A stretch of DNA of 41,350 bases, taken from positions 1 to 41,350 of the forward strand of contig MGTT01000001.1 in the NCBI GenBank assembly GCA_001799575.1. The letters are read 5' to 3'. Positions 17,578 to 25,842 of the stretch are shown piece by piece; positions within the stretch are counted from its first letter, which is position 1; each line of letters starts with the position of its first letter. A program made the translations under genes and the position numbers. The stretch comes from Elusimicrobia bacterium GWA2_56_46. Lineage in GTDB: Bacteria > Elusimicrobiota > Elusimicrobia > Elusimicrobiales > UBA9959. The notes below the pieces were generated by a model. That model was not told the DNA's origin, did not search any database, and was given only the letters and a program-made list of their open reading frames with translations.

Positions 17578-17605
17578 AGCCGGGAATTTTTTGAGGAGAA
17601 AATTT

Positions 17606-18937
17606 ATGAAAAAAAACAATAACGACAAGGTCAATATCTGCGTTGTCGGCGCGGGCTATGTGGGGCTTGTCTCCGGCGCCTGCCTGGCCGAAACGGGCCA
17701 CCGCGTGGTCTGCGTGGATTCCGACCCCAAAAAAATCGCCCTGCTTGAAAAAGGCGTGATGCCGATCTACGAAGAGGGCCTTGAGAAAGTGGTGAAGCGC
17801 AACGTCAAAGCCGGACGCCTGTTCTTCACCACCTCCATAAAAGGCGGGATGCTCCACGGCGGCCGGCGGGCCGAAGCGATCTTCATAGCCGTGGGAACCC
17901 CTCCCCGCGAAGACGGCTCCGCGGATCTCTCCGACGTGGAGAAAGTGGCCGAAGAGATAGCCCGCAACATGAGCGGCTATACCGTGATCGTGGAAAAGTC
18001 CACCGTTCCGGTCGAGACCTGCGAATGGATCAATAAGACCGTGGCCCGCCACAACAAGAACCATATACCTTTCGACGTGGCGTCCAATCCGGAATTCCTG
18101 CGCGAGGGCACCGCGGTCAAGGATTTCCTGGAACCCGACCGCGTGGTTCTGGGCTGCCCCTCAAAACAGTGCGAGACGGTGCTGCGCAGGATCTACAAGG
18201 CCATGAAAGGCGCCACGGTGCTTGTGACCGACGTGAAAAGCGCGGAACTCATCAAGCACGCGTCCAACTCTTTCCTCGCCGCCAAGATCTCTTTCATCAA
18301 CGCGGTGGCCCGGGTCTGCGAAAAAACCGGCGCCGACGTGGAAATGGTGGCCAGAGGCATGGGCCTGGACAAGAGGATCGGCGCCAGCTTCCTGAAAGCC
18401 GGCATAGGTTTCGGCGGCTTCTGCTTCCCCAAGGATCTGGAAGCGTTCTACTGGCTCAGCCACCGCAAAGGTTACAACTTCGAACTCCTGAAAGCCGTCA
18501 AGGAGATCAACGAAGACGCCAAGCTGTGGCTGGTGCGCAAAGTGCAGGACGAACTGTGGAACCTGGAGGGCAAGACCGTGGCGCTGCTGGGCCTGGCGTT
18601 CAAACCGGAGACGGACGATATGCGTTTCGCCCCCAGCATAGATATAATAGCCGAATTCAGGAAACTGGGCGCCAAAGTGCGCGCCTATGACCCGGTTTCG
18701 CAGGAGAACGCCAGGAGGGTGATCCAGGGCATCTACTTCGCCGAAGACGCCTACGATTGCGTGGCCGGAGCCGACTGCGTCTGCCTGGTCACAGAATGGA
18801 AAGAGTTCGCCGGGCTGGACATGAAAAAGATCCTGGCCTTGCTGAAGCACCCGATCATGATAGACGGCCGCAATCTTTATACCCCGTCCAAGATGCGGGA
18901 GCTAGGGTTTACGTACAAGTCGGTGGGAAGGCAATAA
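17606..18937 (+). CDS. ugd: UDP-glucose 6-dehydrogenase
   Basis: Oxidises UDP-glucose to UDP-glucuronate with two NAD+. The 443-residue protein has the Rossmann motif GAGYVGLVSGACLAETGH at about 15-32. NAD-domain motifs VGTPP and EKSTVPVET follow. The catalytic cysteine lies in GIGFGGFCFPKDL (around residue 271). The C-terminal UDP-binding domain includes LGLAFKPETDDMR. I chose the ATG at 17606, preceded by GAGGAG with good spacing, over an in-frame ATG at 17591. The next gene encodes UDP-glucuronate decarboxylase, which uses its product, so together they make UDP-xylose for a surface polysaccharide or glycan. No glycosyltransferases are adjacent. Confidence 0.96.
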   Translation: MKKNNNDKVNICVVGAGYVGLVSGACLAETGHRVVCVDSDPKKIALLEKGVMPIYEEGLEKVVKRNVKAGRLFFTTSIKGGMLHGGRRAEAIFIAVGTPPREDGSADLSDVEKVAEEIARNMSGYTVIVEKSTVPVETCEWINKTVARHNKNHIPFDVASNPEFLREGTAVKDFLEPDRVVLGCPSKQCETVLRRIYKAMKGATVLVTDVKSAELIKHASNSFLAAKISFINAVARVCEKTGADVEMVARGMGLDKRIGASFLKAGIGFGGFCFPKDLEAFYWLSHRKGYNFELLKAVKEINEDAKLWLVRKVQDELWNLEGKTVALLGLAFKPETDDMRFAPSIDIIAEFRKLGAKVRAYDPVSQENARRVIQGIYFAEDAYDCVAGADCVCLVTEWKEFAGLDMKKILALLKHPIMIDGRNLYTPSKMRELGFTYKSVGRQ

Positions 18938-18944
18938 AATTCAA

Positions 18945-19020
18945 GATTCCGGATTGAAGATTCAAGATTAAACCCAACACTCCGGCAATCCGGAATCCGC
19001 AATCTTGAATCCGGAATCCC
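18945..19020. repeat. Fold-back array of heptamers (GATTCNN type), copy 1
   Basis: The left arm runs GATTCCG, GATTGAA, GATTCAA, GATTAAA (18945-18972). After a 13-base spacer the right arm is the same unit reversed: CAATCCG, GAATCCG, CAATCTT, GAATCCG, GAATCCC (18986-19020). The element fills the ugd-uxs gap almost exactly, ending at the ribosome binding site AAGGA of the next gene. The same unit recurs at 37593-37721. Confidence 0.85.
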
Positions 19021-19035
19021 AAGGACGGCCATGTT

Positions 19036-19965
19036 ATGCGAATCCTCGTCACCGGCGCGGCCGGTTTTTTAGGCAGCCATCTCTCCCGGTATCTGCTGGC
19101 CAAAGGCCACTCGGTGGTAGGCCTGGATAATTTCATCACCGGCAATCCGGACAATATCCTGGATCTGTTCAAGAACGGAAAATTCGAATTCATAAAATAC
19201 GACGTCACGAACTACCTGAACGTGCCCGGCAAACTGGACGCCGTCATGCATTTCGCCAGCCCCGCCTCGCCCATAGACTACCTCAAGTACCCGATACCCA
19301 CGCTGAAAGTCGGGGCTTTGGGCACCCATAAGGCGCTGGGCCTGGCGAAGGACAAGAAAGCCATCTTCATGATAGCTTCCACCTCCGAAGTCTACGGCGA
19401 TCCTCTCATAAATCCGCAGCACGAAGGCTACTGGGGGAATGTCAATCCGGTGGGGCCCCGCGGGGTCTACGACGAAGCCAAGCGCTTCGCCGAGGCCCTG
19501 ACCATGGCCTATCGCCGTTATCACCATATGCAGGTGCGCATAGTCAGGATCTTCAACACCTACGGTCCCAATATGCGTCTGAAAGACGGGCGCGCGGTGC
19601 CTAACTTCATGGTACAGGCGCTCAAGAACAAACCGATCACGATCTACGGCGACGGCACGCAGACCCGCAGCCTGTGCTACGTTTCCGACCTGATAGACGG
19701 CATCTACCGCCTGCTGAAAAGCGGCATCAACGAGCCCGTCAATATCGGCAACCCGCGCGAGCTGACCCTGCTTGAGCTGGCCGGCATGGTAAAAACCGCC
19801 GCCGGCAGCAGATCCAGGATAGTATTCCGGCCCCTGCCGGAGGACGATCCCAAGGTGCGGCGGCCGGACATCTCCCGCGCCATGAAAACCCTGAAGTGGC
19901 GCCCCAAAGTCTCCCTGGAAGATGGCCTCAGAAAAACCGTGGCCTATTTCAGAACCCGCGTTTGA
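19036..19965 (+). CDS. uxs: UDP-glucuronate decarboxylase (UDP-xylose synthase), extended SDR
   Basis: A 309-residue NAD-dependent extended short-chain dehydrogenase/reductase. It opens with the glycine motif [11 protein letters not shown] (6-16). The catalytic triad residues are the Ser/Thr region [10 protein letters not shown] and Tyr-X3-Lys in [16 protein letters not shown]. That block, together with the [15 protein letters not shown] segment, marks the UXS group rather than GalE or RmlB. It converts UDP-glucuronate, made by the upstream enzyme, to UDP-xylose. AAGGA lies about ten bases before the ATG. No transmembrane region, so it is cytosolic. A related activity (UDP-apiose/4-keto-pentose type) is possible but less likely. 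Confidence 0.9.
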
Positions 19966-19976
19966 CGCGGTACAGT

Positions 19977-22880
19977 ATGGATATCAGATCACTACCCGGC
20001 GGCGGCAGCTTCCTGGCGCGTATAGTTCTACCCAGCGCCCTCGCCATAGCCTTATTCATCTCCGCCACCTTCCTTTTCATCATCCCTTCTTTCGAACGCA
20101 ATATGCTGGATCGTAAGCGGGAAACCATACGGGAACTCAACAACTCCGTCCACAGCCTGCTTGAGAAATTCTACCGGGACGAGAAAGCCGGACTCCTTAC
20201 GCGGGCGCAGGCCCGGCGCAAGGCCGCGGAAAGCGTGCGCGCGCTGCGCTACGGGCCCGAGAATAAGGATTATTTCTGGATAACGGATCTTGGTCCTACA
20301 ATGATTATGCACCCCTACCGTCCGGATCTGGACGGAAAAGACCTTTCCGGCTTCCGGGATTCTCACGGCAAACGCATCTTCGTAGAATTCGCCGAGATCG
20401 GGCGGCACTCAGGTTCCGGCTACGTGGACTATATGTGGCAGTGGAAAGACGATGCCGCGCGCATAGTACCGAAACTTTCCCACGTGCGCCTGTTCGAGCC
20501 CTGGGGCTGGGTCACCGGCACCGGCATCTATATAGAGGACGTGCGCACGGAGATAGCCAGTCTTGAAGCCAGCCTTATAAAGATCTCTCTTCTTATAGCC
20601 GGCATCATCGCATTGATACTCCTCTATGTAAATCAACAGAGCCTGCGCATCGAACGCTCCCGCCGCCGGGCGGAAAAACTCCTTTCGGAATCGGAGGAAA
20701 AATACCGGAAACTGGTCGAGGCCGCCACGGAGGGGATAATAATGATCCTGGACGGCAGCCTCGTCTATTCCAACCGGACCATGCTCGATATGCTGGGCTA
20801 TGATCCGGAAGAGCTTAAAAAACTTAACCTGGCCGGGATCCTGCACCCGGACTCCTCAGCCAGCTTTGAATATCTGCGGGAACTCCTGGAAAGCGGCGGA
20901 ACGCCTCCCCGGATCGAAGCCGCCCTCCTGCGCAAGGACGGGGAAAATTTCCGCGCCCTGCTAACGGCATCGAAACTGCGCTTCGGGGGGCGGGAGGGTT
21001 TTATACTTACCGTAAAGGACATCGACCGGCATAAAAAAACGGAAGAAGAGCTTTCGGAAAGCAGAGAGAAGTTCCGCCTCCTGACGGACAATATAAACCT
21101 GGGCGTCTTCCGGGTGGATCTGCCGGAGCGGCGCGTAACGGAGGCCAACCCCGCCGCCGCCCGGATACTGGGATATCCAAACTTCAAAGAACTCTCCCGC
21201 GCCGGTGACGATCCTCTCAGGCCGTTTGAAAGCGCCGGGCTCCTGGCGGAAGTTTCCTCCGGAAAGGCGGTCAGGGAGGCCCTGGTCGCCATACTGCCGG
21301 GCCGGCCCGCGGAACGCTCGGTTCTTATCTCTCTCATGCCGCTGCCCGGCGGCTCCGAACCGGCCCGCTATTGCGACGGATTGATCGAGGATATCACCGC
21401 CCGCAGGAAGTCGGAGGCGGAACGCGAAAAACTCCTGTCGGAACTTCAGATGTCCCTGGGGTCGCTGAACCAGTCGGTTCGCGGCATTGCCAGGAAAGCC
21501 GCCGCCTGCCCTCTTTCCACCCCTATAGATAAGGCCGCGGAAATGATGACCAGGGCCGAAAGCAGCTGTATCCTGGTGGAGAACGGAGGAGAATTTGTGG
21601 GAGTGGCGACCGACCACGACCTCCGCTCCCGCGTACTCGCCGGGACAACCACCCCGCAGGAACCCGTCTCGCGCATCATGAGCTCGCCGCTCATCAGCGT
21701 ACCGGAAACGGCCCTTCTTTTTGAGGCCGTGCTGCTGATGCGGGAAAAGAATATACGCCACCTGGCGGTAAGGGACGCCTCCGGGAAAGTGGTAAGCGTG
21801 ATCGACGAAAAAGAACTCCTGGCCCTTAAATGGTATTCGCCGGCGGTTCTGATGGAGGAATTCGCCAGGGCCTCCACCGTACAGGAAGTAATAGCGGTAA
21901 AAGAGCGCCTACCCAGACTGGTGAAAACACTTTCGGACAGCGGCGCCGACAGCGCCGGTATCACCCGCCTTATCACCGCCGCGGCCGACGCGGCCACGGC
22001 GCGCTTTGTGGATCTCGCCGCGCGCGCTCTTGGGGAACCCCCGGTTCCATTCGCCTTTATGGCGCTGGGCAGCCAGGCCAGAGGCGAGCAGACCCTGGCC
22101 ACCGACCAGGACAACGCTATTGTCTACGCGGATCCGCCGCCGGGGCTTGAGAAAACGACCGGGGAATATTTCCAGGCCCTGGGGGAACAAGTCTGCCGCT
22201 GGCTTAACGAAGCCGGGTACCCCCTCTGCAACGGGGCAGCCATGGCGAATAACCCGAAGTGGTGCCGGCCCCTGGCCGCCTGGAAAACCTATTTCAATGA
22301 TTGGGCGGGGATCACCGACCCCCAGGCGCTGCTGGACATTAACGTATTTTTTGATTTCCGCTGCGTCGCCGGAGAGAGGGCGCTTGAAACGGAATTGCGC
22401 GCCCATGTACGGGCCGCCGTAAAAGGCAGGAAGATCTTTTTTCTAAATCTTGCCAACAACGCCCTGCTCTTCAAAGTGCCCGTGGGATTCAGGGGCGCCG
22501 TCATTGTCGAGGACGAGGGGGAACACCGCGGGACTCTGGATCTCAAGCAGCTGGTGCGGGTCATAACCGATTTCGCCAGGATCTACGCCCTGCGCGGGGA
22601 TGTGGCCGCGCTCCCCACCGTTAACCGCCTCGCCGCCCTGGCCGAAGCCAATATTCTAGACCAGGCCGAAAAAGAGTCTTTTTCGCAGGCTTTCGAGTCC
22701 CTGATGCGTCTGCGTCTCAGGCGTCAGGCGGCGCTGGCGGGAGCCGGGGCCGTTCCCGACAACCGCATAAAACCCGCCGAACTTTCCCAGGCGGATCAGC
22801 TGGCGCTCAGGGAAGCCGCCGCGGCCGCGATGGAAGCTTTGAATAAACTCAAGTATTTGGTAAAATTCCTGATCGTTTAA
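19977..22880 (+). CDS. Membrane sensor: Cache-PAS-PAS-CBS-CBS-nucleotidyltransferase (DUF294)
   Basis: A 967-residue protein of unusual architecture. Helix 1 (about 13-37) and helix 2 (about 201-219) flank an extracytoplasmic single-Cache domain (40-190; note YFWITDLGPTMIMHPYRPDL and PWGWVTGTGIY). Two cytoplasmic PAS domains follow (about 236-352 and 362-478), then a CBS pair (about 505-615), a GlnD-like nucleotidyltransferase domain with GSQARGEQTLATDQDNA (698-714; metal ligands Asp710 and Asp712), and a C-terminal DUF294 helical domain (about 790-960). It has no histidine kinase, GGDEF or methyl-accepting domain. The soluble CBS-NTase-DUF294 module is known beside ActP-type symporters, and a DUF485 gene and such a symporter follow here. 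I infer sensing of a small carboxylate and control of its uptake by nucleotidyl transfer or ligand binding. The ATG at 19977 gives the correct signal anchor. Confidence 0.87.
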   Translation: MDIRSLPGGGSFLARIVLPSALAIALFISATFLFIIPSFERNMLDRKRETIRELNNSVHSLLEKFYRDEKAGLLTRAQARRKAAESVRALRYGPENKDYFWITDLGPTMIMHPYRPDLDGKDLSGFRDSHGKRIFVEFAEIGRHSGSGYVDYMWQWKDDAARIVPKLSHVRLFEPWGWVTGTGIYIEDVRTEIASLEASLIKISLLIAGIIALILLYVNQQSLRIERSRRRAEKLLSESEEKYRKLVEAATEGIIMILDGSLVYSNRTMLDMLGYDPEELKKLNLAGILHPDSSASFEYLRELLESGGTPPRIEAALLRKDGENFRALLTASKLRFGGREGFILTVKDIDRHKKTEEELSESREKFRLLTDNINLGVFRVDLPERRVTEANPAAARILGYPNFKELSRAGDDPLRPFESAGLLAEVSSGKAVREALVAILPGRPAERSVLISLMPLPGGSEPARYCDGLIEDITARRKSEAEREKLLSELQMSLGSLNQSVRGIARKAAACPLSTPIDKAAEMMTRAESSCILVENGGEFVGVATDHDLRSRVLAGTTTPQEPVSRIMSSPLISVPETALLFEAVLLMREKNIRHLAVRDASGKVVSVIDEKELLALKWYSPAVLMEEFARASTVQEVIAVKERLPRLVKTLSDSGADSAGITRLITAAADAATARFVDLAARALGEPPVPFAFMALGSQARGEQTLATDQDNAIVYADPPPGLEKTTGEYFQALGEQVCRWLNEAGYPLCNGAAMANNPKWCRPLAAWKTYFNDWAGITDPQALLDINVFFDFRCVAGERALETELRAHVRAAVKGRKIFFLNLANNALLFKVPVGFRGAVIVEDEGEHRGTLDLKQLVRVITDFARIYALRGDVAALPTVNRLAALAEANILDQAEKESFSQAFESLMRLRLRRQAALAGAGAVPDNRIKPAELSQADQLALREAAAAAMEALNKLKYLVKFLIV

Positions 22881-22942: not shown

Positions 22943-23227
22943 ATGCTTCACGAACCAGCGGCCCAATGCGGGCCAGACGCTTCGGCGGATTACAAGATGC
23001 GCATAGGCGTGTGGATGTTCCTGCTATACGCGGCGGTATACGCCGTTTTCGTCGCCATCAACCTGCTGAAACCCCTCTGGATGGAAAGAACCGTATGCTT
23101 CGGCCTGAATCTGGCCGTCGTTTACGGTTTCGGCCTCATAGCCTTTGCCCTGTTCCTCGCGCTCATTTACAATCATATGTGCGGAACGCATGAGGCTGGA
23201 TCGAAAACCGCTGAAGGAGCGAAATAA
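22943..23227 (+). CDS. DUF485 small membrane protein (YjcH-like)
   Basis: A 94-residue protein with two transmembrane helices and the family signature NLAVVYGFGLIAFALFLALIYN in the second. DUF485 proteins are encoded next to ActP-type acetate symporters, for which they are presumed small subunits. TAGGAG lies about seven bases before the ATG, and the symporter start is two bases after the stop. The N-terminal 16 residues are polar and cytoplasmic. Confidence 0.9.
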   Translation: MLHEPAAQCGPDASADYKMRIGVWMFLLYAAVYAVFVAINLLKPLWMERTVCFGLNLAVVYGFGLIAFALFLALIYNHMCGTHEAGSKTAEGAK

Positions 23228-23229
23228 CC

Positions 23230-25128
23230 ATGGCTATAGCTATTTTCCTCGCGTTTGTCGGCCTCGTACTTGGACTTTCATTCTACTTCGCGGGCAAGAC
23301 CAAGTCGGCCAGCGGATACTTCGCGGCAGGCGGACAGATCCATTGGGCCGTAAACGGTGTAGCCTTCGCCGGGGATTACCTCTCTGCCGCCTCTTTCCTG
23401 GGCATCTGCGGCATGATAGCGACCGCCGGATACGACGGCTTCCTGTATTCCATCGGCTACCTGGCCGGCTGGATCGTGGCGCTGTTCGTGGTGGCAGAGC
23501 CTATGAAACGCCTGGGCAAGTACACCTTTACCGACGCCCTGGACTCCAAGTTCAACTCGCGGGGGATCAAACTGACCGCGGCCATCAGCACTCTGGTGGT
23601 TTCAGTATTCTACCTGATCCCGCAGATGGTGGGCGCGGGCGTGCTGGTAGAGCCGCTGCTTGGCATACCTCATTACGCCGGAGTCATCATGGTCGGGGCT
23701 ATAGTCATAACGATCGTGGCCACGGCGGGCATGACTTCCACCACTTACGTTCAGTTCATAAAGGGCGGCATGCTGGTGGTGTTCTCCCTTGTAGTCTGCG
23801 TCGCGGTGCTCTACCGCGGACTTTCAACAACTCCCGACCAGGGCGGACGCGTTCCTTTCCACGAGTATAAGACCATGAACGCCTCCGAGGTTCGGGGAGA
23901 GCTTGTTCCCGCGGACAAGGCTTATACCGTGACTGGCAAACAGGAAGTAAAGGGCGCGGCTTTCGTGAAACTGCTCTCGGGCGGAATCGAGACCTGGTGG
24001 ACGCTTTACAATAAGGACGGGAAGCTGACCCTGCGCGAAACTCAGTACTCCACGGCTAAGGCCGACGGAACCAGGCTGGTCAACGGCCTGCCGGAATCGA
24101 AGGAGAACCAGCCGCGCCTGTACGGCAATCTTGAAGCCATCAAAGGGAAGACCGGCCCCGAAGCCGCCACGGGGAAAGTCGGGCCGCTGGAGTTCCTTTC
24201 CATCCTGAGCGACCCCGAAACAAGGGTGAACCGGTGGAAGACGGTCAAATTCTCCGACGGCGCGGATAAGGTTGTGGTCTACGCCCCCAACGTCACGCCC
24301 GGCAACAAACTGATGCGCCCCGGCCTTAAGTTCAAGGTGGAAGGCACGCCGATGCAGAAGCTGGACTTCTTCTCGCTGATGCTGGCGCTTTTCCTGGGCA
24401 CCGCGGCTCTGCCGCACATCCTGATAAGGTACTATACCGTGCCCAGCCCGGCCTGCGCGCGCAAATCCACCATAGTGGCCATCGCCGCCATAGGCTTCTT
24501 CTACATACTGACCATGTATCTGGGCCTGGGCGCCCTGGTAAACTCGGTAGTGAACCCGCTGACGGACAATATGTCGGCCCCGCTGCTGGCCAGGTCTTTC
24601 GGGACTTTCCTGTTCGCGATCATCTCGGCCATAGCGTTCGCCACCGTGCTCGGCACGGTGAGCGGGCTTATTATAGCCGCTTCCGGCGCGGTGGCGCACG
24701 ACCTGATGGATCGCTATATGCAGCTCGGCTTCAACGAGAAGCAGAAGGTGCGGGCGGGCAAGATCGCGGCTTTCGCGGTAGGGATCGTCGCGATAATCCT
24801 TGGGATAATCTTCAAGGGAATGAATGTTTCTTTCCTGGTGGGCCTCGCCTTCGCGGTAGCCGCGTCGGCCAATCTGCCGTCCATCATCATGATACTCTTC
24901 TGGAAGAAGACCACCGCCAAAGGGATCGCGGCCTCCATCGTCACCGGCATGGTTTCCGCCGTAGGAATAATAATGTTCTCGCCGAGCATCTACGAGAAGT
25001 TCGGCCTGGATCCCGCCGCGGCGCCCATACCGCTGGACAACCCCGGCATCTTTTCCATACCGCTGAGTTTCCTCGTACTGGTAGCCGTCTCTCTGCTGAC
25101 GCAAAAGAAAGAAGCGCAAGCGGTCTGA
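23230..25128 (+). CDS. actP: ActP-like cation/acetate symporter (SSS family)
   Basis: A sodium:solute symporter, probably for acetate or another short carboxylate, in the inner membrane. Strong family motifs include the opening FYFAGKTKSASGYFAAGG (18-35), FAGDYLSAASFLGI (46-59) and GTAALPHILIRYYTVP (390-405). At 632 residues it is longer than E. coli ActP (549). The extra length is a polar, soluble-looking segment at about 198-375, after helix 5, rich in charged residues and short strands; it would lie outside the membrane core. The gene is coupled to the DUF485 gene (2-base gap) and sits downstream of the Cache/CBS/nucleotidyltransferase sensor. Solute specificity within SSS is inferred from family and context. 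Confidence 0.9.
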   Translation: MAIAIFLAFVGLVLGLSFYFAGKTKSASGYFAAGGQIHWAVNGVAFAGDYLSAASFLGICGMIATAGYDGFLYSIGYLAGWIVALFVVAEPMKRLGKYTFTDALDSKFNSRGIKLTAAISTLVVSVFYLIPQMVGAGVLVEPLLGIPHYAGVIMVGAIVITIVATAGMTSTTYVQFIKGGMLVVFSLVVCVAVLYRGLSTTPDQGGRVPFHEYKTMNASEVRGELVPADKAYTVTGKQEVKGAAFVKLLSGGIETWWTLYNKDGKLTLRETQYSTAKADGTRLVNGLPESKENQPRLYGNLEAIKGKTGPEAATGKVGPLEFLSILSDPETRVNRWKTVKFSDGADKVVVYAPNVTPGNKLMRPGLKFKVEGTPMQKLDFFSLMLALFLGTAALPHILIRYYTVPSPACARKSTIVAIAAIGFFYILTMYLGLGALVNSVVNPLTDNMSAPLLARSFGTFLFAIISAIAFATVLGTVSGLIIAASGAVAHDLMDRYMQLGFNEKQKVRAGKIAAFAVGIVAIILGIIFKGMNVSFLVGLAFAVAASANLPSIIMILFWKKTTAKGIAASIVTGMVSAVGIIMFSPSIYEKFGLDPAAAPIPLDNPGIFSIPLSFLVLVAVSLLTQKKEAQAV

Positions 25129-25137
25129 GCGGCCTGA

Positions 25138-25842
25138 ATGAAAATAGTAGTTTTCACAGACACCCACGCCAACCTCCCCGCCCTTAAAGCCCTGGCCCGG
25201 GAGATACGCCGCGAAGGCTATGACGCGGCCTTTCACACGGGGGATGCCGTCGGCCTCGGTCCGTGGCCGGCTGAAACCATAGAATTACTGGGGGAGATCC
25301 CGCGGCTCAGCCTGCTGACCGGCAACCACGACGCCTGGATGTGCGGGGGACTGCCCGGGGGAGCGGAGCGCTGGCTTGAAGAACATTACGCGTGGCTGTC
25401 CGGGCAGGTGTCCCGCATACATATAACCGCGGCCGCCGCCTGGCCCTACCTTACAGAACATGAGTTCGAAGGAGTGCGCACCGCTTTTGTGCATTACGCG
25501 CTGAGCTCCTGCGGCCGCCAGGTCTCGCTGCCGATAAGCGATCATATCCCCGGCGACCTTGACGCCCTGCTGGGGAAACATTCCTCCCTGCTGGTCTTTC
25601 ACGGCCACAGGCATAAGGCCTCCGATCTTAAAGGAAAAGTGCGCTATGTAAATCCCGGCTCGCTTGGCTGCTGGCATAAACCCGCCGCCCGCTATGCCAT
25701 CGTAAGGTTCCACAAGGGCAAGGCCTCGATACAACACCGAGCCGTACCCTATGACGAAGCGGAACTGCTGGAAGGCTTTGCGGCCCGGAAAGTCCCCGAC
25801 TACCGGCGGATACTCTCCTCTTATTTCGCCCGCTATTCGTAG
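25138..25842 (+). CDS. Calcineurin-like metallophosphoesterase (YfcE/MJ0936 type)
   Basis: A 234-residue cytosolic phosphoesterase with all metal-ligand motifs of the family: FTDTHANLPAL (6-16, Asp and His), GDAVGLGP, GNHDAW and FHGHRHKA, then NPGSLG. It likely hydrolyses a phosphodiester or small phosphorylated metabolite; the substrate is unknown. It follows the symporter by nine bases, so it is probably in the same operon, and could remove a nucleotide signal, but that is speculation. The 3' end overlaps the convergent ABC permease gene by ten bases, leaving no room for a terminator. Confidence 0.9.
   Translation: MKIVVFTDTHANLPALKALAREIRREGYDAAFHTGDAVGLGPWPAETIELLGEIPRLSLLTGNHDAWMCGGLPGGAERWLEEHYAWLSGQVSRIHITAAAAWPYLTEHEFEGVRTAFVHYALSSCGRQVSLPISDHIPGDLDALLGKHSSLLVFHGHRHKASDLKGKVRYVNPGSLGCWHKPAARYAIVRFHKGKASIQHRAVPYDEAELLEGFAARKVPDYRRILSSYFARYS

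Follow-up and report, generated by a model that had tools for sequence, protein, structure and literature searches.

The known outputs of bacterial receptors built on Cache and PAS sensor domains are of the kinase, cyclase, diguanylate cyclase and chemotaxis kinds. What, then, does a receptor of this type do if its chain ends in a nucleotidyltransferase (NTase)? Such a gene lies at positions 19977..22880 of contig MGTT01000001.1 from Elusimicrobia bacterium GWA2_56_46, within the stretch of 41,350 bp analyzed here (positions 1-41,350, hereafter the window; window coordinates are used throughout, and all features placed by them below are on the + strand). The host genome (2.66 Mb in 30 contigs) is a member of the Elusimicrobiota, and its near relatives in the public collection are Elusimicrobia metagenome-assembled genomes. 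The answer that we favor, and hold with confidence and doubt evenly balanced, is that the gene encodes a carboxylate-gated transmembrane receptor nucleotidyltransferase (the writer), which is opposed by a phosphoesterase (the eraser) and acts on carboxylate uptake.

The open reading frame translates into 967 amino acids with the domain order Cache-PAS-PAS-CBS-CBS-DUF294-DUF294_C. A first-pass annotation of the window had proposed this chain, and Pfam recovered each of its domains well above cut-off. The extracytoplasmic sensor is an sCache_2 domain (residues 44-195; 20106..20561; 4.4e-36) that sits between two hydrophobic segments, transmembrane (TM) segment 1 (residues 9-40; 20001..20096) and TM segment 2 (residues 193-223; 20553..20645). 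Both were identified by hydropathy and coincide with long helices of the structural model (residues 10-70 and 186-251, respectively). The two TM segments around the Cache domain support a membrane receptor, as had been claimed. The sensor is followed by PAS domain 1 (residues 241-349; 20697..21023; 6.2e-18), PAS domain 2 (about residues 364-477; 21066..21407; PAS_8 at 2.6e-17, or PAS_4), a CBS pair matched in two stretches (about residues 506-616; 21492..21824; 2.7e-18), the DUF294 NTase domain (PF03445; residues 644-779; 21906..22313; 3.5e-45) and the helical DUF294_C domain (PF10335; residues 820-959; 22434..22853; 4.2e-32). In the alignment, PAS domain 2 is missing from some relatives (loci L019, L020, L029 and L030). 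Pfam detected no PF00027 cyclic-nucleotide-binding domain in the receptor, which has Cache-PAS in that place.

The Cache domain offers a view of what may be sensed. Its best sequence matches in the PDB are 4k08 (2.4e-38) and 5g4y (1.8e-32). PscD (5g4y/5g4z) has glycolate, acetate, propionate and pyruvate as ligands; Y90, H103, Y143 and K156 hold the carboxylate, W92 and W145 sandwich it and F126 lies behind, and these seven contact residues are common to Adeh_3718 and McpP (PMC5062169). Aligned to 5g4y, they correspond to Y99, W101, H112, F135, Y152, W154 and K166 of the receptor, all of which are invariant across 61 sensors. The L-lactate receptors identified in PMC12415202 have Leu at the position of the His, where the receptor keeps H112. 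Because the PscD-type pocket is invariant in the 61 sensors and carries His rather than the Leu of L-lactate receptors, the alignment strongly suggests that the ligand is a C2/C3 carboxylate. The sCache_2 chemoreceptors PscD, McpP and Adeh_3718 share with the receptor the single Cache domain and the same seven contacts, but they end in methyl-accepting chemotaxis protein signaling domains, whereas the receptor ends in an NTase. MctS and CrbS are, like the receptor, regulators tied to SSF-type carboxylate uptake (monocarboxylate or acetate transport and use). However, they are histidine kinases acting on transcription, and no histidine kinase domain is present among the Pfam matches of the receptor. 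The MctS model matches only its sensor part (residues 36-228), with 85 bits versus a cut-off of 700.

At the other end of the chain, conservation among the fused sensors defines an NTase motif, G698-S699 ... D710-x-D712 (22068..22112), contained in GSQARGEQTLATDQDNA (residues 698-714). G698, R702, E704, D710 and D712 are identical in 81/81 fused sensors and S699 in 80/81. A putative third catalytic Asp, D793 (22353..22355), is also identical in all 81 and lies where a strand begins in the model. Soluble DUF294 relatives mostly retain these residues. This conservation supports the prediction that the NTase active site is intact.

Structural modeling, which the first-pass annotation had put forward as a check, was carried out on the C-terminal module (residues 483-967; mean predicted local distance difference test score of 89.3) and predicted a GlnE/DrrA-like fold. 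In a structure search with the NTase and C-terminal module, the N- and C-terminal adenylyltransferase domains of GlnE were the best matches, followed by the AMPylase DrrA. The individual matches include 1v4a (Z 28.1, 337 residues aligned, 6.1 Å), 3k7d (Z 26.5, 307 aligned, 3.0 Å) and DrrA 6yx5 (Z 25.8, 295 aligned, 3.5 Å, 12% identity in the aligned part). CBS pairs rank below these (2yzi at Z 18.4, others lower), and they make up most of the match list, so that they may mask further relatives of the C-terminal part. The NTase of the first-pass annotation stands on its DUF294 match, and its description as GlnD-like calls for a shift of emphasis, as the top folds are GlnE and DrrA and GlnD is absent among the matches listed. 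The model suggests that the NTase and helical C-terminal domain adopt a GlnE/DrrA-type adenylyltransferase fold, which does not in itself imply activity. GlnE is a soluble enzyme with two tandem NTase domains that modifies glutamine synthetase. Like the receptor, it combines an NTase with a helical C-terminal domain and has DxD...D catalytic residues, but the receptor has one NTase under a membrane sensor; Pfam found a single DUF294 stretch and no second NTase domain in tandem. DrrA, a protein AMPylase, has the NTase fold in common with the receptor and differs in organism, target and context. Earlier sequence work also groups DUF294_C with the C-terminal domains of GlnD/GlnE and DrrA (PMC3710099). 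The CBS pair has an adenosyl-binding-type motif, with T545 in 71/81 and D548 in 74/81 of the fused sensors, and it probably reads adenine nucleotides.

What might such a receptor act on? Three genes follow it in the window, with intergenic gaps of 62, 2 and 9 bp. They encode a small DUF485 membrane protein (22943..23227; a weak Pfam match of 1.4e-6, 28.7 bits vs the cut-off of 28), a 632 aa ActP/MctC-like SSF symporter (23230..25128; Pfam SSF 6e-68) and a calcineurin-type metallophosphoesterase (MPE; 25138..25842; Metallophos_2 1.7e-17), the proposed eraser. The DUF485 and ActP-like genes had been noted before, but the neighbor list was one gene short, the MPE just beyond the symporter having been missed. 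The MPE has DxH, GD, GNHD and GH motifs, and its nearest solved relatives are 3rqz and 3qfm. The symporter belongs to SSF and matches the NCBIfam MctC/ActP models with scores under the equivalog cut-offs, including 323.8 bits against the cut-off of 1099.25 for the ActP equivalog TIGR02711. Its SSF match is split, covering residues 30-195 and continuing from about residue 356, with ~160 residues between (about 196-357; 23815-24300), and its total length is alike in relatives across phyla. Profile searches of the host genome detected AckA above its cut-off and no AcsA above its cut-off.

On the other side, UDP-glucose dehydrogenase-like and NAD-epimerase genes (17591-19965) stop 11 bp short of the receptor start and may share its transcript in this genome. 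We considered them as part of the system and rejected them because the block of sensor, DUF485, ActP and MPE recurs without them among the matches of the relatives.

The arrangement is widespread and not peculiar to the host genome. A search of genome contigs with the receptor alignment as query identified 392 relatives, and the best 80 of these, which match nearly full length with 35-83% identity, were analyzed as loci. Their titles include Elusimicrobia, Acidobacteriota/Holophagaceae, Aminicenantes, Bacteroidetes/Ignavibacteria, Calditrichaceae, KSB1, Myxococcales, Gemmatimonadetes, Actinobacteria and others, and the architecture is present in at least eight phyla. Outside the Elusimicrobiota, all 46 relatives scanned with Pfam have sCache_2, PAS, CBS, DUF294 and DUF294_C. 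The sensor is rare: in the phylum of locus L041 it was found in 9 of 345 species, and in that of L045 in 9 of 331 (one partial). The CBS-NTase part is held by 15 of the 295 genomes of the same phylum as the host. All 14 Elusimicrobiota loci that were read have the sensor (its end only in L031), DUF485 and symporter in that order, and the MPE comes next wherever the contig extends that far. On the tree the fused sensors form one clade and the soluble DUF294 proteins a separate one. Viral contigs had no match to the receptor, and plasmids had partial matches only, with no record reaching 80% of the query. Among open-licence papers we found no study of the Cache-PAS-CBS-DUF294 architecture. One 834 aa relative (L138:5038-7542), which matches residues 470-946 only (the CBS-NTase part), adjoins DUF485 and symporter genes and has no recognised partner.

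Most of the 80 loci encode an SSF symporter within 7 kb, of one of three types: ActP-like with DUF485, a 515 aa SSF protein, or a 563 aa SSF protein with DUF4212. The receptor is thus linked to carboxylate-type symporters in many phyla. In addition, 70 of the 81 sensors are accompanied by a single partner enzyme, and no locus has two kinds. The partner is an MPE in an upstream position (27 loci), downstream of the symporter (8 loci, including the window) or in convergent orientation (6 loci). In 14 loci it is a convergent downstream AP_endonuc_2/xylose-isomerase-like TIM barrel, in 9 a PHP domain fused to the receptor, in 2 (near relatives) a PHP protein encoded by a separate upstream gene, and in 4 a 3′-5′ exonuclease with a soluble DUF294 gene. 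The remaining 11 loci have none, and at least 5 of them are at contig ends. The fused and separate PHP forms occur in near relatives (fused in L065, upstream gene in L075 and L083), a visible fusion or split. The nearest solved relatives of the PHP domain are phosphoesterases or nucleases, including the 5′-3′ exoribonuclease 7ug9 and the amidohydrolase 2yb1, and metal-binding motifs are largely present in both MPE and PHP partners. Convergent Crp-type genes (L079, L100 and L108) and an amidohydrolase gene (L044) were not counted as partners; the former encode Crp/FNR-type regulators on the opposite strand downstream and end within ~12 bp of the receptor stop. A secreted, porin-like protein of ~400 aa without a Pfam match also recurs near the receptor (e.g., L074:13951-15168; cluster in 34/70 loci).

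These partners were classified by their resemblance to seed proteins taken from the same loci, and the counts refer to families found in that way. A Pfam tally of the neighbors, which is independent of the seeds, found Metallophos in 30 of 91 adjacent non-transporter genes vs at most 1 of 140 genes >4.5 kb away (Fisher 5e-13), and AP_endonuc_2 in 12 of 91 vs at most 1 of 140 (Fisher 8e-5), where both tests take 1/140 and the loci are not independent. On the tree, the mutually exclusive partner types have switched at least seven times. A known partner type was also present in all five loci collected once the pattern had emerged (L132, L133, L134, L136 and L137); the sample from the Bacteroidota phylum largely repeats earlier loci, so only L132 was counted from it as new (L135 repeats L072). 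In the Elusimicrobiota, an orthologue of the window MPE (57-88% identity) occurs in 14 of the 15 sensor genomes, the window's own included, and in none of the 280 without the sensor. The sole sensor genome without it is 78% complete, and its contig ends inside the symporter. Two Elusimicrobiota genomes without the sensor encode the symporter with no MPE nearby. The MPE therefore follows the sensor, not ActP, in this phylum, a profile that could also be explained by co-inheritance as a block.

Soluble DUF294 proteins provide the closest comparison. Like the receptor, they have a CBS pair, DUF294 and DUF294_C, adjoin or are co-regulated with ActP and DUF485/DUF4212, and have a phosphoesterase-type partner (the exonuclease); unlike it, they lack Cache, TM and PAS regions, and some have a cyclic-nucleotide-binding domain instead. 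On plasmids, a 3′-5′ exonuclease gene neighbors the soluble DUF294 gene in 10 of 11 loci, a count that takes in an Agrobacterium gene annotated as hypothetical but matching exonucleases at 4e-111; the exception is Skermanella (L112). Among sensor loci, the exonuclease is found only in those of Myxococcota type, the window having the MPE instead. In seven Myxococcales/Myxococcota loci (L045, L048, L052, L072, L133, L134 and L136) the fused receptor, the soluble DUF294 gene and the exonuclease gene lie side by side. The soluble protein Pflu5625 of P. fluorescens belongs to the CrbS/R acetate regulon together with ActP and a DUF485 protein, and nucleotidylation was proposed there from Aravind and Koonin 1999 (PMC5715377). 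PP_0354 of P. putida, a CBS-domain protein studied within the same acetate response, has raised levels on acetate and is called uncharacterised in PMC8402216; it is probably a soluble CBS-DUF294 protein.

Several observations weigh against a writer and eraser acting on carboxylate uptake. No partner is present in five loci despite ample flanking sequence (L044, L066, L100, L107 and L108). An eraser role of the TIM-barrel partner, in 14 loci, is doubtful because its nearest solved relatives are MJ1311 and sugar (tagatose) epimerases; the notion that every partner is a phosphodiesterase is weakened accordingly, and with the TIM barrel set aside a clear phosphoesterase accompanies 56 of the 81 sensors. 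Soluble DUF294-exonuclease pairs occur without a carboxylate transporter in Hymenobacter, Vibrio and Cytobacillus loci, or with a sugar symporter; therefore, the target need not be the symporter. Because the exonuclease pairs persist in such loci, the partner tracks the NTase more closely than it does the transporter. Neighborhood alone does not reveal the substrate, and deletion of Pflu5625 had a negligible effect on growth on acetate (PMC5715377). The literature that we found holds no measured activity for any DUF294 protein.

Some of these points also fit other explanations. The NTase could synthesize or lengthen a small nucleotide signal, whether a dinucleotide, an oligonucleotide or a modified nucleotide; the signal would target either the transporter or gene expression, and the phosphoesterase partners would degrade it. 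The nuclease-like partner families (the exonuclease beside soluble DUF294 in the 10 of 11 plasmid loci, and PHP near 7ug9 and 2yb1) and the occurrence of soluble DUF294 pairs far from any carboxylate transporter agree with this. However, the closest folds are all protein-modifying adenylyltransferases, and the hydrophobic, membrane-like N-terminus of the exonuclease in some loci is unlike a typical messenger hydrolase, and we consider such a signal unlikely, though deserving of real weight. The phosphoesterase might instead control how much of the nucleotide ligand of the CBS pair (AMP, ATP or Ap4A) is available, rather than act on the NTase product, leaving the NTase with an unrelated target. 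CBS pairs do bind adenine nucleotides, including Ap4A in AcuB (9s4y), and T545 and D548 are largely conserved; against this, a locally encoded enzyme would need to shift a global nucleotide pool, and the PHP-receptor fusion is better explained by action on the receptor's own product. We regard this as quite improbable.

A switch that binds nucleotides without transferring them, in which the receptor regulates the symporter, or some other protein, through direct contact, would accommodate the slight phenotype of the soluble homologue deletion (PMC5715377), catalysis by DUF294 proteins being a prediction. It sits poorly with metal-binding aspartates that are invariant in 81/81 sensors and with the recurrence of a phosphoesterase partner, and we give it slightly less credence still. 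Finally, the domains may have been joined by accident in one lineage, with linkage by co-inheritance only. The loci do share ancestry, as the fused sensors form one clade that includes several near relatives, but conservation extends to modules with 29-45% identity and to at least eight phyla, and it involves three symporter types and several unrelated partner types, which makes such an accident very improbable.

Returning to the receptor nucleotidyltransferase and its phosphoesterase, from the computed domains, topology, pocket and active-site conservation, fold and linkage we infer the ligand, direction of control, catalysis, nucleotide, target and eraser role as follows. Outside the membrane, the Cache domain would bind a monocarboxylate of the C2/C3 class (acetate, pyruvate or propionate), and the signal would pass through TM segment 2, the PAS domains and a helix to the CBS pair. 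The latter would report the energy state and set the activity of the GlnE/DrrA-like NTase. With the Cache domain either loaded or empty, the NTase would then nucleotidylate a protein, most likely with AMP, the most plausible target being the adjacent symporter/DUF485 unit or a partner of that unit, and the neighboring phosphoesterase would take the group off. In this way, uptake of the same acid may be tuned post-translationally to the supply outside and the energy state inside.

More broadly, and leaning a little toward doubt, we propose a class of transmembrane receptors with protein nucleotidylation as output; each would pair with one of several unrelated phosphoesterase erasers, and the resulting writer-eraser switch, distributed among at least eight phyla, would act on carboxylate uptake. 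What is new is the breadth of the architecture, the invariance of both pocket and active site, the match to an adenylyltransferase fold and the repeated presence of a phosphoesterase partner. If true, the output chemistries of bacterial receptors would be extended by one that is adenylyltransferase-like and carried by a conserved receptor, and a function open to testing would be assigned to the DUF294 family, which is uncharacterised and, in Pseudomonas, already linked to acetate use. The phosphoesterase partner, recurring and mutually exclusive in kind, provides a concrete write/erase hypothesis, with named genes, for a domain of unknown function.

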